Shown one piece after another: positions 44,431-49,762 of a stretch of DNA of 64,000 bases. A program made the translations under genes and the position numbers. Origin of the DNA: Hyphomonas chukchiensis. Lineage in GTDB: Bacteria > Pseudomonadota > Alphaproteobacteria > Caulobacterales > Hyphomonadaceae. The stretch covers positions 248,001 through 312,000 of the forward strand of contig NZ_AWFG01000001.1 of the NCBI RefSeq assembly GCF_000682695.1. Direction: 5' to 3'. The notes below the pieces were generated by a model. It worked only from the letters and a program-made list of their open reading frames with translations, searched no databases and was not told the origin of the DNA. The number at the start of each line of letters is the position of its first letter. The stretch's first letter is position 1.

Positions 44431-45060
44431 ATGGACCCGAACGCCATGGACGCCCTGCTCGTCTACCCTGCCACACTTGTGCTGATCGCCCTGAATGTGA
44501 TCGCCAGCGTCCTGGCGTTCAACAATCGCGACCTGTTCGACCGGTACTGCTTCTGGATCAAGCCGATCCGGGAAGGCGAGGAATGGTTCCGCTTCGTCAC
44601 GTCGGCCTTCCTGCACGTCAATGGCATGCACCTCTTCATCAACATGTACGTGCTCTACACGTTCGGAAAGATCCTCGAAGCCTATGTCGGGTCTGGCGGC
44701 TTCCTGATCCTGTACGCGGCCTCCATGCTGGGCGGGAATGTCTGGGAATATGCAGACAAGCATAACCAGCCGAACTACCGCGCCGTCGGTGCCTCGGGCG
44801 CCACATCCGGTGTGATCACGGGCTTCTGCCTCTTCTATCCTTTCGCGATGCTCTACCTCTTCTTCGCCATCCCCATGTGGGCCATCGTTTTTGGCGTCGG
44901 CTTCATCGTGGTCAGCTTCATTCTCTCCCAGCGCGACCAGACCATGGTGGCGCACGGCGCCCACCTCGGCGGCGCGCTGACAGGTCTCGTCATCGCGATG
45001 CTGCTGCGTCCGGCTGCCTGGCGGGAACTGATTGAGCAAGTGGCGCACCGCATTGGCTGA
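44431..45060 (+). CDS. Rhomboid-family intramembrane serine protease
   Basis: A 209-residue polytopic membrane protease. The serine of the catalytic dyad is in GASGATSG (about Ser122) and the histidine in HGAHLGGAL (about His178). The family HLFINMYVL segment with its His and Asn lies near residues 67-71. Six hydrophobic segments fit the rhomboid core. ATG 44431 is used; ATG 44446 and TTG 44428 are alternatives, and none has a clear ribosome-binding site. The 3' end overlaps the next gene by 29 bases. Confidence 0.87.
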   Translation: MDPNAMDALLVYPATLVLIALNVIASVLAFNNRDLFDRYCFWIKPIREGEEWFRFVTSAFLHVNGMHLFINMYVLYTFGKILEAYVGSGGFLILYAASMLGGNVWEYADKHNQPNYRAVGASGATSGVITGFCLFYPFAMLYLFFAIPMWAIVFGVGFIVVSFILSQRDQTMVAHGAHLGGALTGLVIAMLLRPAAWRELIEQVAHRIG

Positions 45061-46195
45061 TGACAGCAATATCTCGGTGCTCGACCGCTACGAGGCGCGG
45101 ATCGCCGAAGGCCTGATCGATGCCGATAGCGCGCAGGCCAAGGCCGCCGCGCGCCTTGATGACCTCGCCCGCAGGCTGGCCAACAAGAACAAGGGCGGCT
45201 GGTTCTCGAAACCCGCGCCTGTCCATGGCCTCTACATGTGGGGCGGCGTCGGACGCGGCAAATCCATGCTGATGGACCTCTTCTTCGAGGCAGCCCCCGT
45301 CACCCCGAAACGCCGTGTTCACTTCCATGAATTCATGGGCAGCGTGCACGACATGCTTGGCGAATGGCGCAAGCTCGACGCGAGCGCGCGCAAGCGGTCA
45401 CAATGGCGCGTCAAGGGAGCCGGCGACGACCCGATCGCGCCAGCCGCGAAACGCATCGCCTCAGGCGCGAGCCTGCTTTGCTTTGACGAATTCCAGGTGA
45501 CGCAGATTGCCGACGCAATGATCCTGTCGCGCCTGTTCGAAGCCCTATTCGATGAGGGCGTCACCGTCGTGGCGACATCCAACCGCCATCCGGACGATCT
45601 CTATACCGACGGCATCAACCGTCCCCTCTTCTTGCCCTTCGTCGATATACTGAAAGCCAATTGCGACGTGTTCGAGCTGACATCCGACCGGGATTACCGC
45701 CTCGACCGGCTAAGCGAAGCGCCCGTCTGGTACGCGCCGCTTGGGCCCGAGGCAGACACGGCGCTGGACAAGGCCTGGAACCGGCTGACGCTTGGCGCGA
45801 CGCCGCAGCACTGCACGTTGAAGGTCAAAGGCCGCAAGCTGGAGGTTTCGCGCGAGGCAGCGGGGACGGCCCGTTTCACCTTTGAGGAATTATGCGCCCG
45901 CCCCCTCGGCGCCCGCGACTATCATACGATCGGCGCCCATTTCCACACCGTGTTCCTTGAAGGCATTCCCCTGCTCTCGCCTGAGAACCGCAACGAGGCT
46001 GCGCGCTTCGTGATGCTGATCGACGAGCTTTACGAGGCGAAGGTCAAACTCGTCGCGAGCGCCGCCGCCGAACCGGATGCGCTCTATCCCTCAGGCGATG
46101 GCAGTTTCGAATTCCAGCGCACCGCCAGCCGCCTGCACGAGATGCGCTCAACCGAATATTTCGCCGAAGCACACAAACAGGTCACCGACGTTTGA
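45032..46195 (+). CDS. zapE: ZapE/AFG1-like ATPase
   Basis: P-loop ATPase of the AFG1 family; E. coli ZapE acts on the FtsZ ring and the mitochondrial homologue in protein quality control. The 387-residue protein has Walker A GGVGRGKSMLMDLFF, the HFHEFMGSVHD motif, Walker B SLLCFDEFQVTQIADAM, VVATSNRHPDDLYTDGINRPLFLPF and a C-terminal RTASRLHEMRSTEYF. No ATG exists at the 5' end; TTG 45032 has GGGA at good distance, with TTG 45053 as alternative. It overlaps the rhomboid gene 5' and a LysR gene 3' by 14 bases. Confidence 0.9.
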   Translation: MSKWRTALADDSNISVLDRYEARIAEGLIDADSAQAKAAARLDDLARRLANKNKGGWFSKPAPVHGLYMWGGVGRGKSMLMDLFFEAAPVTPKRRVHFHEFMGSVHDMLGEWRKLDASARKRSQWRVKGAGDDPIAPAAKRIASGASLLCFDEFQVTQIADAMILSRLFEALFDEGVTVVATSNRHPDDLYTDGINRPLFLPFVDILKANCDVFELTSDRDYRLDRLSEAPVWYAPLGPEADTALDKAWNRLTLGATPQHCTLKVKGRKLEVSREAAGTARFTFEELCARPLGARDYHTIGAHFHTVFLEGIPLLSPENRNEAARFVMLIDELYEAKVKLVASAAAEPDALYPSGDGSFEFQRTASRLHEMRSTEYFAEAHKQVTDV

Positions 46196-47129
46196 TCGGT
46201 CGGGCAGCGGGCTGGAACGCATCTGAATCCAGCAAGTCCATGGCCACGTCGCGGAAGACGAGTCCAAGTGCTTCAATGTCCCGGCCCAGCGGCGAGCCCG
46301 TGCGCCAGATCAGGCTGACATCGCGGGTAGCAAGTGGATGGCGCAGCGGCCGAACCACCTGGCCCGGGTCGCGCTGGGCTTCCACCACGGCATAGAGATT
46401 GGGCAGGATGGCAACGCCCGCTCCCATGGCCGACATCTGCCGCATCGCATCCAGTGATGTCCCCTCATATTCCGTACTGACATGCGCACCGGCAGCATCG
46501 GCCAGCATCTGGATCACGACGCTGAGCCGGTGGCCGAAACCGAGGCTGAGCAATTCCCTGCCCTGTAGCGCACTGATATCAACGGGGCCTTCACCCTGGG
46601 AAAGTTCGTCATCCGGCGCGGCGCATATGAAAAGCGTTTCCTGAAACAGGGACATGCTTTCGCTGTTCACATGGTCCTCCGGCGTCGAGATGATCATGTC
46701 GAGACGACCGTCATTGAGCTTTTCCTCAAGGTCGATCGTGCGCTCCTCACGCACGCTCATGCGCAGGTCAGGGAACAGGCGGTGGAGTTCCCCCACCGCA
46801 CTCGGCAGAAGATAAGGCCCGATCGTGGGCACAGTACCGAGACGGTAGCGGCCCGCGACACGCCCCTCCGATTGCCGTGCAACGGTCTTCAGGTCTTCCA
46901 GCTGCGTCAGGATTACGCGCGCACGACGCACCACTTCCTCGCCCGTGGGCGTCATGATCGCACCGTTGCGACCGCGCTCTATGAGCACGGTGCCGAGTTG
47001 CTCCTCTGCTGCGGCAATCTGGGCGGAGAGGCTCGGCTGGGAGACATTCAACAGTTTCGCCGCCTCGTGGAATTTACCGGTTTCGGCCACCGCGACGAGA
47101 TACTGCAACTGTCGGAGGGTTGGACGCAT
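46182..47129 (-). CDS. OxyR-like LysR regulator lacking both redox cysteines
   Basis: The 315-residue protein has a LysR helix-turn-helix (HEAAKLLNVSQPSLSAQIAAAEE) and an OxyR-type regulatory domain (RLGTVPTIGPYLLPSAVGELH, EGTSLDAMRQMSAMGAGVAILP, TGSPLGRDIEAL). At the place of the OxyR GHCL motif it reads GHRL (Arg201), and the second redox cysteine is replaced by Ala210; the only cysteine is Cys169. Disulfide switching as in OxyR is therefore excluded. A near-consensus OxyR operator lies about 33 bases before its ATG in the region shared with the carbonic anhydrase gene. Confidence 0.85.
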   Translation of the reverse strand: MRPTLRQLQYLVAVAETGKFHEAAKLLNVSQPSLSAQIAAAEEQLGTVLIERGRNGAIMTPTGEEVVRRARVILTQLEDLKTVARQSEGRVAGRYRLGTVPTIGPYLLPSAVGELHRLFPDLRMSVREERTIDLEEKLNDGRLDMIISTPEDHVNSESMSLFQETLFICAAPDDELSQGEGPVDISALQGRELLSLGFGHRLSVVIQMLADAAGAHVSTEYEGTSLDAMRQMSAMGAGVAILPNLYAVVEAQRDPGQVVRPLRHPLATRDVSLIWRTGSPLGRDIEALGLVFRDVAMDLLDSDAFQPAARPIKRR

Positions 47130-47161
47130 CAGATATCCTTTGGATTGCGGATTTCATTTTG

Positions 47162-47198
47162 ATAGGTTTTGACTATCGAAACAAGAGTGTTTTCGTAT
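47162..47198. promoter_or_regulatory. Tetrameric OxyR-type operator
   Basis: ATAG-N7-CTAT (47162-47176) is followed after exactly seven bases by AGAG-N7-GTAT (47184-47198), reproducing the OxyR array ATAG-N7-CTAT-N7-ATAG-N7-CTAT with two mismatches, both in the second half. It is placed 33 bases before the OxyR-like gene and about 220 before the carbonic anhydrase start. Confidence 0.55.
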
Positions 47199-47417
47199 TG
47201 GAACTATGTATTGGAAGTCCCGAAATACCGGTTGTGCGAACGAACCGGAGTGCCCCCTTAGTGCCAGCGACAGACCTTAAAAGCCGAAGTGCTTGCCGCT
47301 GCTACAGCGAGGTCACCCGCTCAGCTGTGGATCCGCCGCGCAAGACCTGAGACGCCCACCGCGTCACACCTGACATCCTATCCAGCTTTCCTCCCACGCA
47401 TCGAAAAGGAGTTTCGC

Positions 47418-48086
47418 ATGCCACGCTTTGCTGCGGGCGTCGTCCGCTTCCAGAATAACGTCTATCCCGGCAAACAGGACCTGTTTGAAGAACTCAGCCA
47501 GGGCCAGTCTCCCGAGGCCCTGTTTATCACCTGCTCCGACAGCCGCATCGAAACGGCCATGATTACGCAGACAGAACCCGGCCAATTGTTCCATGCGCGC
47601 AATGCCGGAAATATCGTTCCGCCGCACACCGAGCATACCGGCGGCATGACAGCCGCCATCGAATACGCCGTAGCCGTCCTGCAAGTGCCGCATATTGTCG
47701 TGTGCGGACACACAGGCTGCGGCGCCATGAATGGCGCCATGCACCCGGAAGGCCTTGATGGCCTGGATCATGTGCGCAAATGGCTGGCCTATTCCAAGTC
47801 AGCAGTCGACATCGTCGACGAGCTGGCCCCGAACGGCACGCCGGAAGACCGGATGCAGATGCTGATCGAGCAGAACGTCCTCGTCCAGCTGCAGCACCTG
47901 CGTACGCATCCAAGCGTCGCGCGCCGCCTCGCCAAGGGCGATCTCGAACTGCACGGATGGGTCTACGACATCCGCACAGGCGACGTGTCCGCCTTCGACG
48001 CCGACCAAAACACATTCATCCGGGTTGATGCGCACTATGCCAGCCAGATCGCCGAACTTGCCGGCGATCATGACTGCGCCGCCTGA
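47418..48086 (+). CDS. Beta-class carbonic anhydrase
   Basis: Zinc enzyme interconverting CO2 and bicarbonate. The 222-residue protein has the zinc ligands Cys39 (FITCSDSR, with Asp41), His98 and Cys101 (VCGHTGCGAMNG), and FHARNAGNIVPPH. The ATG 47418 has AAAAGGAG upstream; the frame is open to 47289 without support. It lies 23 bases before the SulP transporter and is divergent from an OxyR-like gene. With SulP it forms a likely bicarbonate supply module. Confidence 0.94.
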   Translation: MPRFAAGVVRFQNNVYPGKQDLFEELSQGQSPEALFITCSDSRIETAMITQTEPGQLFHARNAGNIVPPHTEHTGGMTAAIEYAVAVLQVPHIVVCGHTGCGAMNGAMHPEGLDGLDHVRKWLAYSKSAVDIVDELAPNGTPEDRMQMLIEQNVLVQLQHLRTHPSVARRLAKGDLELHGWVYDIRTGDVSAFDADQNTFIRVDAHYASQIAELAGDHDCAA

Positions 48087-48109
48087 CCCCCAGACAACGG
48101 AAAAAGTCT

Positions 48110-49762
48110 ATGACAACACCCCAGACAGGGGCGCAGCCGAAAGGCGCGCCCTATTTTGATCTCTCGAACCTGAAGGGCGACCTTTTCGGCGGATTGACCG
48201 CCGGCATCGTCGCCCTTCCCCTCGCGCTCGCCTTCGGTGAAGCCTCAGGCGCCGGCCCCATTGCCGGCCTCTGGGGCGCCATCTTTGTAGGCTTCTTTGC
48301 CGCCCTGTTTGGCGGCACGGGCTCGCAAGTCTCCGGTCCGACGGGCCCCATGGTCGTCGTCTTTGCCGGTCTCTATGCAGCACTTGGCGGCAACCCGGCG
48401 CTCGTCTTCGGCGCCGTCATCCTTGCGGGCCTGATGCAGATCCTGCTCGGCTTCATGCGGTTCGGCCAATATGTGAAACTGGTGCCCTACCCCGTCATCT
48501 CGGGCTTCATGAGCGGCATCGGTGTCATCATCATAGCGCTCCAGCTCGCGCGGCTGTTCGGCCACGAACCGGATGGCGGCGGCACGATTCCAGCCTTCAC
48601 TGCCGTTCCGGGCGCCGTGATGGATCCCAACTTCATTGCCGTCGGCATCGCGATCCTGACACTCGGCATCGTGTTCAGCTGGCCGAAGAAGTTTGCCGCC
48701 TATGTGCCCGGCCCATTGGCCGCGCTGGTGATCGGCACGCTGGTCAGCATCGCCATCCCGGGCGCCCCGCTGCTCGGTGACATCCCGACAGGCTTCCCCA
48801 GCTTCGTGCTGCCGGCCGTGAATGTGGACTCCGCGCTCATCGTCATCGAAGCGGCCTTCATTCTTGCCGTGCTCGGCTCCATCGACAGCCTGCTGACGTC
48901 ACTTGTCGCCGACAACATGACCCGCACGCGCCACAAGTCGAACAAGGAACTGATCGGTCAAGGCATCGGTAACGCGCTGGGCGGCTTCTTCGGTGCCATT
49001 CCTGGCGCCGGCGCCACCATGCGTACCGTGATCAACATCCGTTCCGGTGGGCGCACGCGCATCTCCGGCATGACACACGCCCTCGTGCTGCTCGCCATCG
49101 TCATCAGCCTTGGCCCGCTTGCCGCGAAGATCCCGCATGCGGTTCTGGCCGGCATCCTGGTGAAGGTTGGCGTCGATACGATCGACTTCTCCTATCTGAA
49201 GCGGGCCCACAAAGGGCCCCGCTGGGACCTGGGCCTCATGGTGCTCGTGCTTGGCCTGACCGTATTCGTCGACCTGATCACGGCGGTGGCGGTCGGCGTG
49301 GTGCTCGCGGCCCTCGCCTTCATCAAGAACCTTGCCGATGACCAGATCAAGGCCGTTCAGGAAGACGAGCCGCGCCTCTCGACCGAAGAAGAGACGCAGA
49401 TCCTGTCGCGCTCAGGCGGCCGGGTGATGATGTTCGACTTTGGCGGTCCGCTCAGCTTCGGCGCGGCGGCTGACCTTGGCCACCATGTCCGCAGCAAGGC
49501 GAGTGACAAGGTGGAGATCATCATTCTCGACTTTTCCCGCGTGCCCTTCATCGATGTATCAGCCGTCAGGGCCGTGGAAACCATCGTCGAGGACGCAGCA
49601 GACTCCGGCAAGCAGGTCTATGTCACCGGCATGAACGAGTCTGTCGGGCGTGTTCTGGAGCAATTCGCCACCGGCCTGCCCGGTAGCAAGGAGAAGCAGT
49701 TCAGCACGCGACTGGATGCGCTGAAAGCTGCGCTCACGAGGTTGGAACCAAGTCGGGCATAG
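48110..49762 (+). CDS. SulP-family anion transporter with STAS domain, probable bicarbonate transporter
   Basis: A 550-residue inner-membrane carrier of the SLC26/SulP family. The signature region LFGGLTAGIVALPLALAFGEASGAGPIAGLWGA is followed by the TGSQVSGPTGPM motif, a run of hydrophobic helices, and a C-terminal STAS domain (about residues 425-535, MFDFGGPLSFGAAADLGHH and IIILDFSRVPFIDVSAVRAVE). Close linkage to beta-carbonic anhydrase makes bicarbonate (BicA-like) the likely substrate; sulfate is the alternative. A terminator follows. Confidence 0.88.
   Translation: MTTPQTGAQPKGAPYFDLSNLKGDLFGGLTAGIVALPLALAFGEASGAGPIAGLWGAIFVGFFAALFGGTGSQVSGPTGPMVVVFAGLYAALGGNPALVFGAVILAGLMQILLGFMRFGQYVKLVPYPVISGFMSGIGVIIIALQLARLFGHEPDGGGTIPAFTAVPGAVMDPNFIAVGIAILTLGIVFSWPKKFAAYVPGPLAALVIGTLVSIAIPGAPLLGDIPTGFPSFVLPAVNVDSALIVIEAAFILAVLGSIDSLLTSLVADNMTRTRHKSNKELIGQGIGNALGGFFGAIPGAGATMRTVINIRSGGRTRISGMTHALVLLAIVISLGPLAAKIPHAVLAGILVKVGVDTIDFSYLKRAHKGPRWDLGLMVLVLGLTVFVDLITAVAVGVVLAALAFIKNLADDQIKAVQEDEPRLSTEEETQILSRSGGRVMMFDFGGPLSFGAAADLGHHVRSKASDKVEIIILDFSRVPFIDVSAVRAVETIVEDAADSGKQVYVTGMNESVGRVLEQFATGLPGSKEKQFSTRLDALKAALTRLEPSRA

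Follow-up and report, generated by a model that had tools for sequence, protein, structure and literature searches.

Introduction

LysR-type regulators of carbon fixation and uptake include CbbR, CcmR/NdhR and CmpR, and nhaA of Escherichia coli is controlled by the LysR regulator NhaR. To our knowledge, little is understood of how bacteria other than cyanobacteria and cbb autotrophs sense inorganic carbon. The closest described system for the regulator characterized here is OxyR, a sensor with a peroxidatic Cys199 and a resolving Cys208 that is linked to ahpC or katG. Other switches have been described among its relatives: the one-cysteine OxyR of Deinococcus radiodurans is reported to sense H2O2, and from a primer printed in that paper we read its Cys210 as aligning with Cys208 (PMC2225504), while mycobacterial OxyS is reported to sense through Cys25 in its DNA-binding domain and to act on katG (PMC3260234).

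Here we analysed a window of 64,000 nucleotides from Hyphomonas chukchiensis, which contains an OxyR-like regulator divergent from a carbonic anhydrase-SulP operon. The regulator shares with the OxyR proteins of E. coli and Pseudomonas aeruginosa (4x6g) the LysR fold, the type and spacing of the operator and the location of the site before its own gene, but it has neither Cys199 nor Cys208, and its neighbours are carbon and Na+ genes instead of ahpC or katG. Like the Deinococcus protein as reported it deviates from the cysteine pair, although one of the two is absent there and both are absent here, and the neighbours differ; like OxyS as reported it is an OxyR-like LysR protein in which the Cys199-Cys208 pair is not the redox switch, but it has no cysteine in the DNA-binding domain. 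Control of inorganic-carbon genes, as proposed below, would be shared with CbbR, CcmR/NdhR and CmpR, although CbbR belongs to a separate subfamily. A tie to nhaA is common to NhaR and the subfamily described below, but OxyR is by far the nearest model to the window regulator. Judged by title, no report that links a subfamily of OxyR without its cysteines to genes for bicarbonate or Na+ was found among CC-licensed PMC papers.

The regulator and its relation to OxyR

The regulator gene lies on the minus strand at 46182-47129 and encodes a 315-residue LysR-type protein, assigned to the OxyR clade by means of an AlphaFold2 model and NCBIfam. The model (pLDDT 89.6) consists of an HTH and a periplasmic-binding-like effector domain, as expected for a LysR-type regulator, and the solved folds ranked first against it are OxyR proteins, with a TM-score of 0.79 (by query length) over 295 columns for 4x6g_D. 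Among 49 NCBIfam families the best is OxyR PRK11151 (NF008361) with 196.1 bits; this score is below the cut-off of 329, which leaves the protein outside the curated OxyR family. The scores for CbbR (NF045990, 78.3 bits, cut-off 450) and CynR (NF008416, 125.2 bits, cut-off 277) are also below their thresholds, and no model named NhaR is among the 25 of the 49 matches listed.

In the translated sequence residues 199-202 read GHRL, and alignment to OxyR places Arg201 at the position of Cys199 and Ala210 at that of Cys208. The only cysteine of the protein is Cys169, and the substitutions and this single cysteine are as had been predicted. The Cys199/Cys208 numbering relies on the E. coli OxyR sequence; independently of it, the alignment with the P. 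aeruginosa structure 4x6g, a C199D protein, pairs Arg201 with the Asp of GHDF. Both the peroxidatic and the resolving cysteine of an OxyR sensor are replaced, and neither position offers the one sensing cysteine of a 1-Cys OxyR; the linkage to ahpC or katG is likewise replaced, by carbonic anhydrase-SulP. The regulator is an OxyR-clade LysR protein that agrees with OxyR in fold and operator and departs from it at both cysteines and in gene context. The regulator of H. oceanitis is 94% identical to it. At its 3' end (46182-46195) the lysR gene overlaps by 14 bp the 3' end of a convergent AFG1-family ATPase gene (45032-46195).

A subfamily without Cys199

Close relatives of the regulator (E <= 1e-60) were found at 64 places in 49 of 101 genomes, namely its own and 100 relatives. 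Sixty of these places were analysed as order-set loci (L043-L102); L149 and L150, both without Cys199, came with the wider set, and G038 and a partial second match in G031 were left out. The 60 loci carry Arg (53), Lys (3), Gly (2) or Asn (2) at position 199 and Ala (59) or Ser (1) at position 208, with cysteine at neither. For the wider set, 385 genomes of the class and 398 of the phylum were searched, and the 52 best-scoring loci among the matches returned yielded 33 distinct proteins without Cys199 and 18 with it (L151, a repeat of L099, is left out of the counts). Since absence of the cysteine defines the 33, only the letters that replace it are a finding: His 15, Arg 10, Ala 3, Gln 2, Thr 2 and Tyr 1. 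Glu or Ala occupies this position in two Mrp-linked plasmid members.

Cys208 is kept in 29 of the 33 outside proteins without Cys199; unlike most of them, the window regulator has lost this position too. Those that keep it could still be redox sensors, because the one-cysteine Deinococcus OxyR, with a cysteine aligned with Cys208, is reported to sense H2O2. The two sets also differ at Thr129, which is Thr in 50 of the 60 order-set loci and Pro in 32 of the 33 outside proteins, and at the position of Cys169, where Cys occurs in 57 of 60 as against 1 of 33.

In a tree of 87 proteins, from which 27 near copies of the 114 had been left out, the Cys199 OxyRs and the proteins without Cys199 form the two sides of one branch (SH-aLRT 100), and a careful unrooted tree of 50 chosen rows reproduces the split with support of 100/99. 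When seven distant LysR rows are used as outgroup, the group without Cys199 nests inside the Cys199 OxyRs (84/100), at a weak root where long branches meet. These sequences point to an old subfamily that probably arose through loss of Cys199 first and of Cys208 later. A loss in a single strain, named in the original prediction as one of the findings that would overturn it, is ruled out by the tree split and by the lack of either cysteine in all 60 related loci.

Gene neighborhoods

At least one gene for carbonic anhydrase, SulP, NhaA or SbtA lies within about 5 kb at 49 of the 60 order-set loci (two of the 49 through carbonic anhydrase matches of 33-34%), the individual counts being 16 for carbonic anhydrase, 14 for SulP, 19 for NhaA and 16 for Sbt. 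The locus classes include divergent carbonic anhydrase-SulP, divergent NhaA, and SbtA with the PII-like SbtB, each identified by Pfam in one member. Outside the order set, at least one of these four genes was found within 1.5 kb at 8 of the 33 loci without Cys199, where ahpC was at none (katG was not among the queries), and at none of the 18 Cys199 loci, 11 of which have ahpC. At 6 kb, a partner gene is present at 8 of 20 wider loci, and some wider loci adjoin a Usp or an isocitrate dehydrogenase gene instead.

We also examined 19 annotated plasmid loci, picked for genus spread from 51 matching records; among those left aside are the enteric oxyR records and repeats. Three of them have Cys199 (two from near-identical Pseudochrobactrum plasmids) and adjoin ahpCF or katG. 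Among the 16 others a partner is present in 11. SbtA accounts for four: Cereibacter sphaeroides, where it is next to cbbLS, Maritalea, Tritonibacter, and Aureimonas, where it lies behind a TerC gene. The cbbLS genes of C. sphaeroides have another LysR gene next to them, distinct from the OxyR-like gene that faces SbtA. Multi-subunit antiporter genes, which we read as Mrp-type, adjoin the regulator in Haematobacter, Ketogulonicigenium and Tateyamaria, and NhaA does so in Ensifer and Novosphingobium; Actibacterium has a run of carbonic anhydrase, NhaA and Usp genes. In Aminobacter genes for a proton-conducting subunit and a DUF2309 protein, which we take to be a DabB-DabA pair, lie about 1 kb away beyond another LysR gene. 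In Sphingobium, one of the five loci counted as having no partner, a gene for carbonic anhydrase lies at a distance of about 3 kb. The only peroxide gene annotated among these 16 loci is katG of Ensifer canadensis, beyond nhaA. In 10 of the 16 records the regulator is labelled 'hydrogen peroxide-inducible genes activator'; a subfamily that often bears this label may instead regulate bicarbonate and Na+/H+ transport.

Informative neighbours separate the two kinds: ahpC, ahpF or katG adjoins the proteins with Cys199, and carbonic anhydrase-SulP, SbtA, NhaA or Mrp those without it. Many proteins without Cys199 have no such neighbour: none was found within 1.5 kb at 25 of the 33 outside loci, within 6 kb at 12 of the 20 wider loci, at 11 of the 60 order-set loci, some of which lie on short contigs, or at 5 of the 16 plasmid loci. 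The proposed link to inorganic-carbon genes recurs far beyond the window locus, though it has to be broadened, as the partners also include Na+/H+ antiporters. Their common thread is the transport of HCO3-, Na+ and H+.

In 61 genomes of the family, SbtA, NhaA or SulP occurs in 40 of 43 with the regulator versus 5 of 18 without it (Fisher P 5e-7, kinship uncorrected), while NhaA alone does not track the regulator (P 0.15). In 40 other genomes of the order the figures are 6 of 6 versus 25 of 34, which is not significant (P 0.31). Family genomes that hold both SulP and NhaA have two or more regulator copies in 10 of 12 cases. Neither NhaA nor SbtA was found in the genome of the window, so carbonic anhydrase-SulP is the partner of its regulator.

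An ordinary peroxide-responsive OxyR, with cysteines replaced in one lineage and accidental neighbours, would account for the best NCBIfam model and for an operator type common to both, but its 196 bits stay below the cut-off, the gene links recur across separate lineages, and the same genome encodes an OxyR with both cysteines adjoining an AhpC-family gene and a carboxymuconolactone decarboxylase-family (AhpD-like) gene; we regard this reading as hardly tenable. Redox could instead still be sensed through Cys169, as OxyS does through Cys25, linking oxidative stress to carbon uptake. OxyS as reported shows that an OxyR-like LysR protein can use another cysteine (PMC3260234), and Cys169 is well kept within the order set. 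Outside it, though, the same gene links occur where all but one of the members have no cysteine at this position, ahpC is absent beside these members, the plasmid loci offer only the Ensifer katG, and one lone cysteine may be structural, all of which makes sensing through Cys169 improbable.

A direct response to Na+ or alkaline pH, in which the bicarbonate genes are merely part of an alkaline-stress response, deserves more weight. As partners, antiporters of the NhaA and Mrp-like kinds occur roughly as often as bicarbonate transporters, and the SulP and Sbt transporters themselves are reported to require Na+ (PMC12628692). The carbonic anhydrase, SbtA and Dab-type pair nevertheless point to inorganic carbon, and the missing NhaA in the genome of the window also speaks against a Na+ or pH signal, which we consider possible although the less expected outcome.

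The operator

A four-element OxyR-type site precedes the regulator gene at 47162-47198, where a pattern search matched 14 of 16 positions (ATAG-GTTTTGA-CTAT-CGAAACA-AGAG-TGTTTTC-GTAT). The array and its two mismatches are as first described, while the gap to the regulator ATG is 32 bp instead of 33 and the conserved unit is longer than four elements. At up to three mismatches, dinucleotide shuffles gave an expectation of 0.02 sites per window, a site turning up in 2 of 100. Across the 3.86 Mb of the genome the pattern occurs at this threshold in two places, the window site (two mismatches) and directly before the canonical oxyR (three mismatches); the backward control pattern has eight matches, so that the locations of the matches, and not their number, are telling.

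What relatives keep is the palindrome ATAG-N7-CTAT (47162-47176), adjoining lysR and present as an exact copy only once within the window, together with ATTGGAACTAT (47197-47207, plus strand) on the carbonic anhydrase side, the two ATAGs being separated by 31 bp; conservation of the AGAG-N7-GTAT half is loose. By analogy with LysR-type regulators generally the palindrome would be the high-affinity recognition site, and ATTGGAACTAT may overlap the -35 box of carbonic anhydrase. In the sense of lysR (minus strand) this gives the extended operator ATAGTTCCAAT-N20-ATAG-N7-CTAT at 47162-47207, which has no mismatch in 19 positions, the pattern having been drawn from the window and related loci. It is found with at most one mismatch in 13 of 14 aligned carbonic anhydrase-SulP loci. 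In the 61 genomes it has 77 matches at up to three mismatches against 11 for the backward control, and all 24 sites at up to one mismatch stand directly before regulator genes of the subfamily without Cys199. Conservation in relatives had been set beforehand as a test of the operator, and it held; shuffles, conservation and these 24 near-perfect copies rule out a chance match.

Outside the order set, the extended operator reaches significance (shuffle fraction <=0.02) before 13 of the 18 Cys199 OxyR genes and before only 14 of the 33 genes without Cys199, and it is significant before 8 of the 16 plasmid loci without Cys199. Because it is significant before genes of both kinds, the DNA-binding mode looks like a trait of the clade that was kept, in line with the earlier idea of a DNA site retained after loss of the redox switch; this loss appears to be old and common to the whole subfamily. 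Many places with two or three mismatches in the 61 genomes follow another recurring motif, resembling ATtGatCCAATcgAT...CTATAG-N6-CTAT (at G000:C1:172372-172417 and in several relatives), perhaps the site of another LysR regulator.

At most loci other than those with carbonic anhydrase the distance from the end of the operator to the lysR start is 0-5 bp, and in most NhaA and SbtA loci (e.g. L050 and L074) it is 1-5 bp. A ribosome site would not fit into this space, and lysR may have a leaderless mRNA in these NhaA and SbtA loci. The short distance fits strong autoregulation and could suit a ligand-free protein that activates or represses constitutively, to a degree given by its own level, but the regulatory domain is conserved, with 10 of the 17 columns invariant in 78 sequences located beyond the DNA-binding domain, and a protein without ligand seems very unlikely to us.

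Proposed mechanism

On balance we favor a regulator that belongs to an old OxyR-clade subfamily without Cys199, was re-purposed to the balance of bicarbonate, sodium and pH, and would activate the divergent carbonic anhydrase-SulP operon. Carbon and ion balance, and not peroxide defence, is probably what this widespread group controls, since its members often lie next to genes for bicarbonate, sodium and carbonic anhydrase. From the residues and the gene context we infer a signal other than peroxide. By analogy with LysR-type regulators, a tetramer would anchor one dimer on ATAG-N7-CTAT beside lysR and the second on ATTGGAACTAT, which lies towards the carbonic anhydrase promoter at a distance of 31 bp, and would repress its own gene. 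A small ligand would enter the cleft where OxyR holds peroxide and switch the contacts on the second element, upon which carbonic anhydrase-SulP would be activated. Our guess is that bicarbonate, or some other indicator of high pH or scarce inorganic carbon, serves as this ligand and is read through the Arg or His that replaces Cys199 in most members; these residues are compatible with an anion pocket and prove nothing.

A bolder reading, which we put forward tentatively, is that bicarbonate or low CO2 became the signal sensed by a widespread OxyR-clade branch, its Cys199 replaced mostly by Arg or His, its peroxide pocket turned into an anion pocket and its OxyR operator kept. This branch would run a common circuit of inorganic-carbon, Na+ and H+ homeostasis (carbonic anhydrase-SulP, SbtA-SbtB, Dab, NhaA, Mrp) in heterotrophic and autotrophic Alphaproteobacteria, to which the window would add a leader peptide as a second layer of control. 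The locus would offer a clean case of a redox sensor with a changed signal and a conserved DNA site, in a cell that also has a true OxyR and a related site, and its small operon would make the question of bacterial inorganic-carbon sensing directly testable.

The divergent operon and its leader

Divergent from lysR, a beta-carbonic anhydrase gene occupies 47418-48086 on the plus strand (Pfam PF00484, E 1e-49), with an ATG that is conserved in the alignment. It is followed at 48110-49762 (plus strand) by a gene for a SulP-family transporter with a STAS domain (PF00916 and PF01740), which is probably a BicA-type bicarbonate transporter, the substrate being suggested by the adjoining carbonic anhydrase gene. 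No sigma-70 promoter or terminator was found by a scan of 47100-47450, and no Rfam element in 46000-48500 at E up to 1.

The carbonic anhydrase leader contains a conserved small ORF at 47261-47350 (plus strand), with a GTG start, 29 residues and a core of about SACRxYSEVTRSxVDPP, present in 13 of the 14 carbonic anhydrase-SulP loci of the order set (absent from L068). In its core, differences among 12 loci at codon positions 1, 2 and 3 number 70, 79 and 504, while 33 synonymous changes are obtained in each of the other two frames. It has no Pfam match and could possibly encode a leader peptide that stalls at PP close to its end. The leader RNA fold is no more stable than those of shuffled sequences (z 0.45). 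The ribosome site of carbonic anhydrase lies inside a small palindrome, CGAAAAGGAGTTTCG (47402-47416, plus strand), just before the ATG, and related leaders have a similar form.

Other classes of locus have divergent ORFs of their own with good ribosome sites (among L048, L050, L051, L056, L058, L060, L061 and L065-L067): Arg-rich ones of 60 residues between lysR and nhaA, and ones of 55-58 residues in SbtA loci. One of each was compared with Pfam and gave no match, and the 60-residue set displays a moderate codon-position signal (503, 474 and 884 differences at positions 1, 2 and 3).
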